Source: Candidatus Iainarchaeum sp.
GTDB taxonomy: Archaea; Iainarchaeota; Iainarchaeia; Iainarchaeales; Iainarchaeaceae
Direction: 5' to 3'
Assembly: GCA_016202305.1 (NCBI GenBank)
Contig: JACQPB010000002.1
Span: 1 to 47,028, forward strand
Length of the DNA stretch: 47,028 bases
Made by a program: the position numbers and the translations under genes
The notes under the pieces: model-generated
The model's input: only the letters and a program-made list of their open reading frames with translations
Told to the model about the DNA's origin: nothing
Databases searched by the model: none
Shown: piece after piece, positions 26,903 through 43,123 of the stretch
Layout: every line of letters begins with the position of its first letter
How positions within the stretch are numbered: the first letter of the stretch is position 1

Positions 26903-26957
26903 CTTTTTTCTTTTCGCCAACGTTTTCTTTTGGGCCGAAACCAAAAGAAAAGGTTGT
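26903..26957 (-). repeat. PIT-like mirror/inverted repeat element, copy A
   Basis: Minus strand reads CACAACC TTTTCTTTTGG-TTTCGGC-CCAAAAGAAAA-CGTTGGCG-AAAAGAAAAAAG; abuts tRNA-Glu 5' end. Confidence 0.8.
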
Positions 26958-27032
26958 GCCCCAATCGTCTAGCCCGGCCAAGGACACCGGCCTTTCAAGC
27001 CGAGAACCCGAGTTCAAATCTCGGTTGGGGCA
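26958..27032 (+). tRNA. tRNA-Glu (TTC)
   Basis: Cloverleaf: GCCCCAA/TTGGGGC acceptor, CTTTCAA anticodon loop, CCGAG TTCAAAT CTCGG T-arm; CCA not encoded. Confidence 0.93.
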
Positions 27033-27219
27033 ATGCATTTCCCAGCGCCTTGAGTTCGCGCGCCCGTGCAGGCGTTGGCGGTATTCACGGCGAATCTGGC
27101 GGCCGGAGCGCGCGGCGGGTGGGGGTTTCCGGAGCGAGCCTCTTGGGCTAATCCCTCAATATGGAGCCGTGGAAACGTCAGGCCGCGAATTCCCGGAGTG
27201 ACTGTTTAGCGGCCTTGCG

Positions 27220-34217: not shown

Positions 34218-34233
34218 TTCCGCAACGGAAAAC
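34218..34233 (+). repeat. 5' half of 16-bp inverted repeat bracketing 16S
   Basis: TTCCGCAACGGAAAAC, exact reverse complement of 35894-35909. Confidence 0.8.
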
Positions 34234-34377
34234 CAAAAAATCCAAGAGCTGGTTCCGCTTCGGCGGTTCCGGCAATTGGTCCAATTCCAATAAGTCGAAA
34301 GCTCAAAAGCCAATAGGCTTAGCTGAAAAAGGTTGTGCGGTTATGGCCGCGAGGCCATGAATAATGCAATCTTTTCA

Positions 34378-35867
34378 ATTCCAGCTGATCCTGCTGGCGG
34401 ATACTGCTATCGAAGTTCGATTCAGCCATGCAAGTCTAAGAGGCCAAGTCATGGTGGCCTCTGGCGTACGGCTCAGTAACACGTAGTTAACCTACCCTTA
34501 AGAGGGGCTAATCCCGGGAAACTGGGGCTAATCCCCCATAGGAAAAGGCAACTGGAATGTGCCTTTTCCAAAAAGGAGCACACCATGCAAGTGTTTCCGC
34601 TTTAGGATGGGACTGCGGTGGATTAGGTAGTTGGCGGGGTAAATGCCCACCAAGCCGAAGATCCATACGGGCCTTGAGAGAGGTAGCCCGGAGAAGGGTA
34701 CTGAGATAAGGACCCTAGCCCTACGGGGTGCAGCAGGCGCGAAAATTCTGCAATACACGAAAGTGTGACAGAGGAACTTCGAGTGTCCCCTTTGGGGACT
34801 TTTGCCAACTTTAGAAAGGTTGGCGAATAAGGGCTGGGTAAGATACGTGCCAGCCGCCGCGGTAATACGTACAGCCCGAGTGGTATCCCCTAATATTGGG
34901 CCTAAAGAGTTCGTAGCCGGCTATGTAAGTCCTTGGTGAAATCGGCTTTCTCAAAGAGTCGAATGGCCAGGGATACTGCATGGCTCGAGACCGGGAGACG
35001 TGAAGGGAATTTCCGGAGTAACGGTGAAATGTTGTGATCCCGGAAAGACCACCAGTAGCGAAGGCGCTTCACGAGAACGGCTCTGACGGTGAGGAACGAA
35101 AGCTGGGGGAGCGACCCGGATTAGATACCCGGTTAGTCCCAGCCGTAAACGATGCGGACTAGGTGTTCTAGCGCTCACGTAGCGCGGGAGTGCCGAAGCG
35201 AAGGTCTTAAGTCCGCCGCCTGGGAAGTATACTCGCAAGGGTGAAACTTAATGGAATTGGCGGGGACGCACTACAAGGGGTGGATGCTGCGGTTTAATTG
35301 GACACAACGCCAGAAAACTTACCAGGGGCGACAGCAGTATGATGGTCAGTCTGAAGGGCTTACCTGACACGATGAGAGGTGTTGTATGGTCATCGTCAGC
35401 TCGTACTATGAAGCGTCCTGTCAACTCAGGCAACGGGCGAGACCCACGTCCATAGTTGCTATTTCCCGATTCCGGGGGAGCACTCTATGGAGACTGCGGT
35501 GGTAACACTGAGGAAGGAGTGGGCCACGGTAGATCTGTATGGCCCGAATCTCCTGGGCTACACGCGGCATACAATGGACAAGACAATGAGTCTCGAGCCC
35601 GAAAGGGTAAGGTAATCCCAGAAACTTGTCCTCAGTTCGGATTGAGGGTTGTAACCCACCCTCATGAAGTTGGAATCCCCAGTAATCGGAAGTAACCATC
35701 TTCCGGTGAATTAGTCCCTGCGTCTTGCACACACCGCCCATCAAGCCAGCTGAGTGGGGTTTTGATGAGGCCATTCTCTCAGAGGGTGGTCGATTCAGAA
35801 TTCCGCGAGGGGGGCTAAGTTGTAACAAGGTGTCCGTAGGGGAACCTGCGGACGGATCACCTCCTTT
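34378..35867 (+). rRNA. 16S ribosomal RNA
   Basis: ATTCCAGCTGATCCTG 5' end; GTGCCAGCCGCCGCGGTAA; ATTAGATACCC; GGATCACCTCCTTTT 3' end. Confidence 0.96.
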
Positions 35868-35893: not shown

Positions 35894-35909
35894 GTTTTCC
35901 GTTGCGGAA
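35894..35909 (+). repeat. 3' half of 16-bp inverted repeat bracketing 16S
   Basis: GTTTTCCGTTGCGGAA. Confidence 0.8.
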
Positions 35910-35920
35910 CTTTGATGCGG

Positions 35921-35986
35921 CCTTTTTTCTTTTCTTGGAAAGAAAAGAAAAAACGTCGACGAAAAAAGAAAAGAATTTTTTTCGTG
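35921..35986 (+). repeat. PIT-like element, copy B
   Basis: TTTTTTCTTTTCTT(35923-35936) / AAGAAAAGAAAAAA(35940-35953) hairpin; mirror arm AAAAAAGAAAAGAA(35962-35975); followed by T7. Confidence 0.85.
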
Positions 35987-35993
35987 CAATAGC

Positions 35994-36056
35994 CACACAA
36001 CCTTTTTCTTTTCGTTGACACGAAAAGAAAAACGTTGACGAAAAAAAAGTGTCAAG
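35994..36056 (+). repeat. PIT-like element, copy C (divergent third arm)
   Basis: TTTTTCTTTTCGT(36003-36015)/ACGAAAAGAAAAA(36020-36032); CGTTGACG spacer; AAAAAAAAGTGTCAAG. Confidence 0.75.
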
Positions 36057-36156
36057 ACATTTCGAGGCATTTTGGAATGTCAAAGGACAACTCTCACATG
36101 CAGCTGTGCTCGCATTTTTGCGGCCAGGAGAGCTAAGTTGCACGTGGGAAATTCAC

Positions 36157-36231
36157 GGGCCCTTAGCTCAGCGGCAGAGCGCTCCGTTTGCATCGGAGAG
36201 GCCACGGGTTCAAATCCCGTAGGGTCCACCA
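36157..36231 (+). tRNA. tRNA-Ala (TGC), CCA encoded
   Basis: GGGCCCT/AGGGTCC acceptor with G3:U70; CTCCG TTTGCAT CGGAG anticodon arm; ACGGG TTCAAAT CCCGT. Confidence 0.96.
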
Positions 36232-36290
36232 CAACCTTTTTTCTTTTCTCAGAGAGAAAAGAAAAAACGTTGACGAAAAAAGAAAAGAGC
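36230..36290 (+). repeat. PIT-like element, copy D
   Basis: TTTTTTCTTTTCTC(36237-36250)/GAGAAAAGAAAAAA(36254-36267); CGTTGACG; mirror AAAAAAGAAAAGAG(36276-36289). Confidence 0.85.
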
Positions 36291-36466
36291 AGTGAAAAAG
36301 TTTTACCTGAAGAAAAACCAAAACTACATCTGCATTTTTTGCGGAGTTTACGCTTACATGTTTTCACAGTTGTAAGGAATCGTCCTGAGTTATTTCAGGA
36401 CGAAGGGCTGAGCTGATTCCATTCCCAATGGTTTTGGCATTGAAGTCGTGCATTGGCAGACCCATC

Positions 36467-39463
36467 GGTTTAAGGAGTTCTGTAAGCCGTCTAGTGGATG
36501 ACTAGGCTTGGAAGCTGTTGAAGGGCGTGGCAAGCTGCGATAAGCCAAGGCGAGCCGCATGCAGGTTTTGAACCTTGGATACCTGAACAGCTCCGTAAGG
36601 AGTGGGAACGCCGGGAATCGAAGCATCCTAGTACCGGCAGGAAAAGAAAGCAATAGCGATTCCGTCATTAGGGTCGACCGAACGCGGAAGAGGACAAACC
36701 GAATTCTGCAGCGTGAGTTGCAGAAGATGTGGTGTTAGGGCCTGGTTACAGCCTCCTGTCATGAGTTGAAGTCCCCTGGAACGGGGCGCCATAGAGCGTG
36801 AAAGCCGCGTAAGCGAAATGCCGGGAGCTGATTGCCGGGTACCCAGAGTATGGCGCGTCGGATATCGCGTCAGAACGTGCGGGTCAATTACCCGTAATCC
36901 TAAATACTCTCCAAGTCCGATAGCTCACTAGTACCGTGAGGGAAAGTTGAAAAGCACCCTTAACAGGGGGTGAAAAGCGCCTGAAACTAGACGGCCATAG
37001 GCTGACAGGGCACAGAAGAGGTAAAGTCCTCCGAAGCGAGGCATGGAAACGTGCGGAGCGAGGAAGGATGATTCAGTGTCCTGTTGTTCGTCCTGAAACA
37101 CGAGCGAGGGAGTTTGCGGGTGTGGCGAGGTTAATCCCCTTCGGGGAGAAGCCGCAGCGAAAGCGAGTGCCCGCAACGCGCGAAAGCGCGTGAGGGGCAG
37201 GGTATGAATAGTGCCCAAGTCACACACGCCAGACCTGAAACCGGGTGATCTATTCCTTTGCAGGCTGAAGTCCCCCTTCCGGGGGATGGAGGGCCGATAC
37301 CAGTGTTAGTCCAACTATTTGGGTGACATGGGAATAGGAGTAAAATGCCATTCGAACCCGGTGATAGCAGGTTCCTTCCGAAATAGCTCTTAGGCTAGCC
37401 TTTGCTGAGGCGGGCTGTGGGGTAGAGATACTGATTAGAAAGTACTGGTTGGAAACTTCCAGCTTTCTTGTCAAACTCCCAATCTGCAGCCGCCGTAGAA
37501 GCAAGGAGTAGGGGTGCGTGGGGTAAGCCCCGTATCCTTAAGGGGAACGACCCAACCTTGGGTTAAGGCCCATAAGTGCGGATTAAGTGTAACTTGAAAA
37601 GCGTCCTTTTCCTAAAACAATGTGGAGGTAGGCTTAGAAGCAGCCATCCTTTAAAGAAAGCGTAACAGCTCACACATCTAGGTGAGGGGCCTTGAAAATA
37701 ATCTGGGCTAAAATCCGCCGCCGATACCCAGGAATGTCCACTGTGTGGACAATTTATTAGGAAGGTGCTCGGATGGTGTAGAAGCAGGGCAGCAATGTCC
37801 TGTGGAACCGTTCGAGATATGGATCCTCGTGCTAGTAATAATATAGAGAGGTGAGAATCCTCTCCGTCGAAAGGGCAAGGGTTCCTTAGCGCTAATCATT
37901 AGCTAAGGGTTAGTCGGTCCTAAGGCCAAACGTAGAGCGTATTGGCCGAAAGGGAAACGCGTTCATATTCGCGTACCATTCAGATACGTCTTCGGCAACG
38001 ATAGCCGTGCTCCAGACGCTTTGGGCTAGTGTCCGTCCCGCCGTCGCGGGATTTAAATTGCATAGGTCCGTGGAGAGCCGTAATGGCGAGAAGCGGAGCA
38101 AAGCAATGAACAGGAGAAATCTGGACACGAGGCCTGGAGCCCGTGAAAATGGAGTGCGGAAGGATTCTGAATGCCCGTACCAAGAACTGAGAAAGGTGCC
38201 CCTGGCTGAGAAGGCCAAGACGTCTCAGGGAATAACTCTGTTTAGGGAATTCGGCAACAATAGCCCTGTATCTTCGGTATAAGGGGTGCCTGCAGTGCAG
38301 ACTGCAGGTTGCAATAACAAGGGGGGTCCGACTGTTTATCAAAAACACAGGTGACTGCTAGCCAGCAATGGTGTGCATAGTCGCTGACTCCTGCTCACTG
38401 CCAGTACGTGAAACCCCGTTCCAACGGGACTAAGCGCTGGTGAAGAGCGGGCCTAACTCTGAGGCTCTCATGGTAGCGTAATACCTTGGCGGTTGAATGC
38501 CGTCTTGCACCAACGGAGTAACGAGATCCCCACTGTCCCGAATAGAGGCCTGATGAACTCGCTGCGCGGTGAATATGCCGCGGAATTCCAACGGGAAGAG
38601 AAGACCCCACGGAGGTTTACCACAATCTGATGTTGTGGTATGTTTTCTGATGTCTAGCGTAGATGGGAGCGCCGAAGTAGTTTCGCTAGGAACTATGGAG
38701 CGACAATGTAACACCATCCTTTGGAAAACGTACTGCTAACCCGCAAAGGGGACAGCATTTGACTTGGTGGTTTGGCTGGGGCGGCACGCCCCTGAAAATG
38801 TATCAGGGGCGCCCAAAGGTGTGCTCAGGTGAGTCAGAAATTCACCGTAGAACGCAAAGGCAAAAGCACGCTTGACCATGAACTACACAGCAAGGTTCGT
38901 GGATGCGAAAGCAGGGCTTAGCGAACGTCAGAAGCGCATTAGTGGCCCTCTGGTCTTACAGTGAATTTACCCTGGTGGTAATTGAGTGGTCGCGGGTGAG
39001 AGTTCACATCGACCCCGCGGTTTGCGACCTCGCCGTCGGCTCTTGATATCCTGGCCGTGCATAAGCGGCCAAGGGTGCAGGTGTTAACTGATTAAAATCG
39101 AACGTTAGTTGGGTTAAGAACGGTGCGAGCCAGTTTGGTTACTATCTGTTGGAATTGTTGGGCGTCTGAGGGGAAGGAGCACTGAGTACGAGAGGAACGG
39201 TGCTTCGTGGCCACTGGTACGCCAGTTGTCTGACAAGGCATCGCTGGGTAGCTACGCCATGGCTTATAAGAGCTGAAAGCATCTAAGCTCGAAGAAGCCC
39301 CTGAAAATAGACGCCCATTCCTGAAACTCCGCACGTAAAACTGCGGAGGCTAGGGACGAGGGCTCCGGCAAAAGACCGGATCGATAGGCTCGTGGTGTAA
39401 GCGCCAAGCTAACGCGAGGCGTTAAGCCTACGAGTACTAAAAGCCCGAGAGAACCCTTAAACC
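36467..39463 (+). rRNA. 23S ribosomal RNA
   Basis: Helix 1 GGTTTAAGG...CCTTAAACC; many conserved 23S blocks incl. CTGGGGCGGCACGCC, GAGTACGAGAGGAAC; termini approximate. Confidence 0.95.
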
Positions 39464-39479
39464 GGGTTTCATGCCAATG

Positions 39480-39560
39480 CACGAACCTTTTTCTTTCTCT
39501 TGAAAAGAGAAAGAAAAACCTTCACGAAAAAGAAAGAGAATTAACTGCTTTTTTTCGTGG
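39480..39560 (+). repeat. PIT-like element, copy E, followed by T-rich tract
   Basis: TTTTTCTTTCTCTT(39488-39501)/AAGAGAAAGAAAAA(39505-39518); mirror AAAAAGAAAGAGAA(39527-39540). Confidence 0.85.
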
Positions 39561-42797: not shown

Positions 42798-43123
42798 CGG
42801 GTAGCAGGCGACCGGATGTCGGTATCCCATATCAGGGACGCTGAGGAAAGTCCGCCCACACGCAGAACACACGCATCGAGAGATGGCCAGGGGCAACAGA
42901 AACGAGACCATTGTTTGCGAACGGAGTGAACCAAGTGCATTCGAAGAATGCGCTGTCGGCATCGCCGGTCGAAAACGGCGGATGAAACGGGCCCCTGAGT
43001 GTGCAACTCCCACGCGGAGGCTAAGTCGAATTCCGGTGAGGCCATGTCCTGAAAAGGGCAGAAACCCTTGCATTAATGGGTTTTCAAGGCCGGAACAGAA
43101 GGCGGCTTACGTCCTGCTGCCCG
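42798..43123 (+). ncRNA. rnpB: RNase P RNA
   Basis: CGGGTAGCAGG...CCTGCTGCCCG P1; GAGGAAAGTCCGCC; GGAACAGAAGGCGGCTTAC. Confidence 0.93.

Follow-up and report, generated by a model that had tools for sequence, protein, structure and literature searches.

Triplex-capable repeat elements beside stable RNA genes and within tRNA introns of Iainarchaeum and other archaea

Elements around the RNA genes of the window

The window, a stretch of 47,028 nucleotides from Candidatus Iainarchaeum sp. (contig JACQPB010000002.1), carries genes for 16S and 23S rRNA, tRNA-Ala(UGC), tRNA-Glu(UUC) and RNase P RNA, together with five copies, A to E, of a short repeated unit (Table 1). Read 5′ to 3′, the unit has the order flank(..CC)–Y–loop–R–spacer–R′, where Y denotes a pyrimidine arm, R the purine arm that forms its reverse complement, and R′ a third arm in which R is repeated in mirror order. 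Judged from its sequence, one strand of such a unit could fold as a pyrimidine-motif triplex and the complementary strand as a purine-motif triplex.

Elements B, D and E have perfect 14-level arms, those of E being of another sequence, joined by a 3-nt loop and an 8-nt spacer, with the basal stems CGGCC/CGTCG, CAACC/CGTTG and GAACC/CCTTC, respectively. The arms of element A are also perfect, with nine levels (26906-26951, minus strand) and a loop of 11 nt, and the tRNA-sense strand at this site reads Y′-spacer-Y-loop-R-GGTTGTG-tRNA. Element C contains a perfect 11-bp Y/R hairpin, but its R′ is imperfect. The spacer is CGTTGACG in both C and D, CGTTGGCG in A, CGTCGACG in B and CCTTCACG in E. 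An earlier note on this DNA had ascribed one architecture to all five copies; the description holds for A, B, D and E and breaks down at the third arm of C. The same note had read a tag, (CACAA)CC, in front of the unit. This tag is not fixed, and its bases are instead the 5′ strand of a basal stem that covaries with the spacer (see below). No element follows the RNase P RNA of the window, unlike in G006, G002 and ARS1307 (loci L096, L146 and L175).

Table 1. Positions of RNA genes, repeated elements and one leader segment in the window
Feature	Position	Strand	Context
Element A	26903..26957	-	inverted copy in tRNA-Glu(UUC) leader; 6 nt from tRNA 5′ end
tRNA-Glu(UUC) gene	26957..27033	+	
16S leader segment GAAAAAGGTTGTGCGGTTAT	34325..34344	+	complementary to element C flank and Y (35989-36008)
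16S rRNA	34378..35865	+	
Element B	35915..35975	+	direct, 3′ of 16S; Y at 35923; model match 80.9 bits
Element C	35995..36051	+	direct, between 16S and tRNA-Ala; Y at 36003; model match 64.4 bits
tRNA-Ala(UGC) gene	36157..36231	+	
Element D	36229..36289	+	direct, tRNA-Ala(UGC) trailer; Y at 36237
23S rRNA	36471..39460	+	
Element E	39480..39540	+	direct, 3′ of 23S; Y at 39488
RNase P RNA	42800-43121		

Two of the direct copies take part in, or abut, complementary segments on either side of an rRNA gene. The bracket formed around 16S by the leader segment and the flank and Y arm of element C scores 16 (shuffled mean 12.1, maximum 17), and around 23S the segment 36446-36458 is complementary to 39472-39484, the latter abutting element E, with a score of 13 against shuffles of up to 14. 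These segments would bracket 16S and 23S as processing stems, a reading for which the scores are suggestive only. A further complementary pair around 16S joins 34218-34233 with 35894-35909.

The mirror arm and the basal stem

A descriptor scan of 249 kb of the source genome, made up of stretches around matches and tRNAs, returned 18 elements with a score of at least 9, compared with a mean of 0.0 in eight local dinucleotide shuffles. The specificity of the third arm was assessed on all pyrimidine-first hairpins of at least 9 bp in the loci of the family genomes. Among 139 distinct hairpins, 105 were accompanied by a third arm that mirrors R with no more than one mismatch, whereas on the same hairpins a direct repeat of R was found 22 times and two complement controls not at all; the loci were chosen for holding matches, and the 105 are to be read as a contrast with these controls, not as a genome-wide rate. 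None of the 139 hairpins had a third arm on both sides. The second loop, i.e. the spacer, measures 8 nt in 59 of the 105 and 6 nt in 27, and the first loop 3-16 nt. Across the 114 elements found in family DNA, 60 different arms occur, and R′ is kept as the mirror of R, while shuffles give no such element. Isolated C's interrupt the T-runs of the arms, the longest run being 5-6 in most arms and seldom above six, as expected if the register of the third strand must be fixed. The C/G levels would provide such a register, which a pure T arm could not.

Spacer bases 3-5 pair with flank bases 3-5, with Watson-Crick pairs in 286 of 309 cells and dozens of different stems, including CAA/TTG, CAG/CTG, TCA/TGA, CGA/TCG, GCA/TGC, TAA/TTA and ACA/TGT. 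In 14 copies of the source genome the three basal pairs display CG/UA/GC, AU/GC/CG and AU/GU types, and the structure of these copies beats all slid and shuffled controls on percentage paired as well as on covariation score. Two levels separate the basal stem from the Y/R helix, and usually at least one of them is a C.C mismatch.

The three-way consistency was also followed at orthologous tRNA sites in different genera. Of 47 differences in Y, 33 recur as matching changes in R as well as in R′; of 44 basal differences, 29 are accompanied by a change of the partner base. The element in the tRNA-Val(UAC) leader is perfect in four genera, with differing arms. Two genera share the basal stem TAACC/CGTTA at Ser(GGA); the stem found there in G003, a genome from a family mate of one of these genera, is TGACC/CGTCA. 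Such matched changes could have arisen by gradual compensatory change or by conversion by another copy, both of which would fit. Two elements within one intron likewise have different arms, each internally consistent, which indicates that local rather than long-range pairing is kept; a long-range duplex between two elements of one intron was accordingly rejected as the cause of the mirror.

Placement and distribution

The source genome (1.04 Mb, 80% complete), of which the window is contig 34, contains about 23 copies according to model and pattern searches, and 21 of them adjoin stable RNAs, the exceptions being C30:11158 and C3:6874. Ten tRNA introns are among the stable-RNA sites, and some of them hold two copies; the other sites are leaders and trailers of tRNAs and the ends of 16S and 23S. 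By tally about 14 of the roughly 39 detected tRNAs carry an element. Several intron-containing tRNAs of the same genome are without one, and the element is thus not needed for splicing. The association with RNA genes proposed in the earlier note is real and was understated there, whereas its restriction to rRNA/tRNA boundaries is not borne out, copies being present in tRNA introns and after SRP RNA, RNase P RNA and stop codons as well.

In the loci of eight family genomes, 74 of the 114 elements adjoin tRNAs, and for all 74 the orientation is fixed by the site: copies at the 5′ end of introns are direct (26) and those at the 3′ end inverted (13), trailer copies are direct (18) and leader copies inverted (17). 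In every tRNA-linked copy the base of the hairpin consequently points toward the exon and the third arm away from it. The tRNA intron is the commonest site (39 of 74); intron base 6 is the most frequent start of the arm (12 of 26), and tRNA-linked copies outside introns lie 1-9 nt from the tRNA ends. The bulge-helix-bulge is canonical, with a full outer helix and at least three of four core pairs, in 25 of 30 element-bearing introns predicted by ARAGORN. SRP RNA and RNase P RNA are each directly followed by an element at three loci, and 23S rRNA at four, there at a distance of 18-29 nt.

Direct copies occur in addition 2-9 nt past protein stop codons. For 12 of the 40 elements that do not adjoin tRNAs, an automated ORF test found a stop codon on the same strand no more than 15 nt upstream, compared with 0.95% of random positions. 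From C-terminal sequence and position, on which the naming relies, the preceding genes look like thermosome (Diapherotrites, Micrarchaeota), FtsZ, Spt5 before L11, ribosomal proteins and an aIF2-beta-like gene.

All eight sampled family genomes, from four genera, match the model. With strict filters and a threshold of E<=1e-5, matches were obtained in 19 of 87 genomes from the phylum. When 85,462 species genomes were scanned with a pattern, 92 stretches emerged, 87 of them archaeal, a number that is an undercount since the pattern fixes one arm type. The archaeal matches fall in Diapherotrites, Micrarchaeota, Aenigmatarchaeota, Pacearchaeota, Altiarchaeota, Thermoplasmatales and others, and eight genomes from the matched groups gave 8-38 model matches each; these genomes are mostly metagenome bins, and some of the matches count one element on both strands. 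In other phyla, too, copies follow stop codons or reside in tRNA introns, some of which are, on inspection, at D-loop and T-loop positions. The five bacterial matches (L179, L199, L211, L213 and L215) were set aside as chance or another motif, two being without an element in the strict scan and three having different spacers and no tRNA context. Further copies, on which the earlier proposal depended, are present both in the genome and in its relatives, so that the proposal withstands two of the three tests set for it, and the combined data support a multi-copy archaeal family tied to stable RNA genes that is, as far as its sequence indicates, triplex-capable (PIT-like, class II/III).

Known relatives and possible roles

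PIT intrastrand triplex motifs were reportedly described by Hoyne and Maher in E. coli and other bacteria. The present elements resemble the PIT/TMECO motifs (Holder et al. 2015, PMC4666352) in the class II order Y-loop-R-loop-R′ and its class III complement, and in being multi-copy and non-coding. They also have the stem of 6-15 nt with at most one mismatch that is characteristic of intrastrand triplex sequences. TMECO combines a G/C-rich sequence with stems of 9 nt and a second loop of 3 nt, whereas the archaeal elements are T.A-T-rich with a second loop of 8 nt (or 6 nt); this loop joins a covarying basal stem and the elements lie at RNA edges and in tRNA introns, unlike TMECO. The G/C-rich TMECO sequence CCCTCNCCC...GGGNGAGGG does not describe their T/A-rich arms, of which 60 are distinct, and their mostly 8-nt second loop exceeds the 1-6 nt that the ITxF search definition allows for both loops (PMC4666352). 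The E. coli motifs had no promoter or terminator activity and formed no stable triplex in vivo, and neither 'tRNA' nor 'intron' appears in the main text of that study (PMC4666352). The G-rich repeats of Methanomicrobiaceae are archaeal, repetitive and intergenic as well and are triplex-capable in vitro, folding as hairpin, antiparallel triplex or G4; they differ in being G/C-rich and quadruplex-capable, and the text is without 'tRNA' (PMC8044849). The R-spacer-R′ arms would qualify as an H-DNA sequence, i.e. a homopurine mirror repeat in duplex DNA, but H-DNA does not account for the Y arm. Of the host introns at 37/38, the majority have the canonical bulge-helix-bulge of archaeal introns, and no report of a shared triplex-capable core in archaeal tRNA introns was found in the openly accessible literature searched.

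Our preferred reading, put forward tentatively, is that the elements would be exon-edge modules, each a removable lock or insulator beside a mature RNA end, with copies spread as a repeat. That selection keeps a three-strand fold is probable and well supported at the level of sequence. With less confidence, the unit can be envisaged as a compact lock that works while the RNA is transcribed and matured; placed next to the mature end, it would isolate the exon from its flanks and from other copies and prevent strand exchange among the many similar hairpins. The lock would then be discarded by the tRNA-splicing endonuclease in introns, by RNase P in leaders and by tRNase Z in trailers, or be left in the 3′ UTR. 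The copies probably spread or convert each other and would in this respect form a non-autonomous dispersed repeat. In different lineages the elements recur beside SRP RNA, RNase P RNA, 23S, thermosome-like, Spt5-like and ribosomal-protein-like genes.

Whether such a lock would form in RNA or in DNA is addressed by the arms. T.A-T-rich arms favour the pyrimidine motif, according to the stability statement in PMC4666352, and the strand with this motif would be the one reading into the exon, that is, the RNA for inverted copies and the template DNA strand for direct copies. Against an RNA lock stands the A-rich purine-motif triplex that direct copies would then have to form. Direct copies hardly fall short of inverted ones in the fidelity of the third arm, an observation that suits DNA at least as well. 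Counted over paired levels, mismatches of the third arm amount to 0 of 397 for inverted copies and to about 13 of 1,120 for all others, a weak hint that the inverted copies are stricter. The Y-R mismatches T.G and C.A number 8 and 5 in direct or unassigned copies and 0 and 2 in inverted ones, counts that lean toward RNA but are too small to settle the matter.

Close behind the exon-edge insulator ranks a selfish DNA element, possible although on the whole unlikely. The unit would then be a REP/MITE-like non-autonomous mobile element, its single-stranded DNA triplex being the substrate of a transposase or recombinase, that would survive only at harmless sites, namely introns, leaders, trailers and positions after stop codons, and would have created many of the tRNA introns. 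In both orientations it is one and the same end of a single type of double-stranded DNA unit that faces the exon, and the occurrence is patchy both within the phylum and across phyla. Copy number has expanded in G006, with 60 matches at E<=1e-5 compared with 4-24 in the other seven family members, and copies at unrelated G006 loci share the arm defects AAATAAAA (L094:7092, L099:734, L109:1124) and AAAGTAAAA (L095:7739, L101:1830, L105:7387). A tail like CCGCTCACGCAG is often present on these copies as well, and the shared features point to recent copying within G006. Direct repeats of 60-70 nt, possibly long target duplications or tandem slippage, flank the elements at L094:15820-16000 (G006; element L094:15884) and L145:460-650 (G002; element L145:529). 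In addition, a truncated 5′ part of a tRNA, followed by an element, lies just upstream of the complete tRNA at L203:5340-5700, L206:6755-6990 and L185:1235-1520 (Altiarchaeota, uncultured archaeon), which looks like a duplication made on the arrival of the element. The truncated copies at L203 form a tandem repeat. The intron gain with an upstream 5′ tRNA fragment described for Caldiarchaeum tRNA disruption resembles these three loci; a 1.8-kb recombinase-bearing sequence was implicated there (PMC3293823), whereas the unit here measures 50-60 nt and has no gene.

Insertion plus purging alone would hardly produce the observed placement, with copies 1-9 nt from exon ends or stop codons and the orientation fixed in 74 of 74 cases; no empty site has been demonstrated and viral contigs gave no match. 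REP elements, with their RAYT transposases, are dispersed hairpin-forming repeats often found after stop codons, as the archaeal elements are, but the latter have a third mirror arm and no linked Y1 transposase was found. IS200-type Y1 transposases are present in G001 and G006 and broken in G003. None was found in the source genome, G000 (80% complete), and the loci of 3.2-3.3 kb around the Y1 genes, with 1.5 kb of DNA to each side, contain no element. Membership in a REP/RAYT or IS200-type system was for this reason rejected. Decayed tandem R-spacer-R′ units with short hairpins between them were observed downstream of some elements (L144:1250-1459, L096:15250-15337). A short sequence like GGGGGGTGCATTGCCGGTC, a candidate small RNA or tRNA-like fragment, directly precedes the element at L101:13305, L107:1453 and L122:1107 (G006, G003), with a TATA-like box upstream in two of the three and no Rfam match.

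A terminator or 3′-end signal, in which the T-rich Y arm brings transcription to an end, either by archaeal oligo-T termination or through 3′ cleavage, and the hairpin or third arm protects the 3′ end, would suit the direct copies, which present the T-rich strand first 2-9 nt past stop codons and a few nt past SRP RNA, RNase P RNA and tRNAs. The genes ahead of direct copies are usually highly expressed. As a general role it is improbable: termination at the 39 intron copies would leave the tRNA unfinished, the copies at Spt5/L11 are placed between neighbouring genes, C's break the T-runs, and termination leaves the mirror arm and the inverted copies at tRNA 5′ ends unexplained. Less probable still is a splicing switch, in which the 5′ flank (e.g. 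CAACC) pairs either with the spacer, giving the triplex form, or with the intron 3′ end GGTTG, giving the inner helix of the bulge-helix-bulge, and thereby tunes splicing. In many introns the flank does correspond to intron bases 1-5, with both partners present and the two states competing for the same bases, but leader, trailer and 3′ UTR copies are without a splice site, and the switch cannot be the general role. Remnants of group I introns were rejected, no group I Rfam covariance match being obtained in the loci searched. A chance product of A/T-rich low-complexity DNA, to which the A/T-rich, simple arms might point, can be dismissed as next to impossible in view of zero elements in local shuffles, the specificity for the mirror, for orientation and for position, and conservation across genera.

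Returning to the exon-edge reading, a broader form of it, in which the elements are widespread archaeal RNA-processing modules that truly fold as intrastrand triplexes within tRNA introns and at the edges of tRNA, rRNA, SRP RNA and mRNA, have spread as a repeat, and from which many tRNA introns of these phyla were built or by which they were created, is conceivable but doubtful. Bacterial genomes have long been known to contain intrastrand triplex motifs, for which no role has been proven. Here, a triplex-capable design is combined with three-way consistency, persistence at orthologous sites, recurrence across phyla and a location at the edges of RNA processing, which makes its role directly testable. 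The elements furthermore bear on the origin of archaeal tRNA introns.
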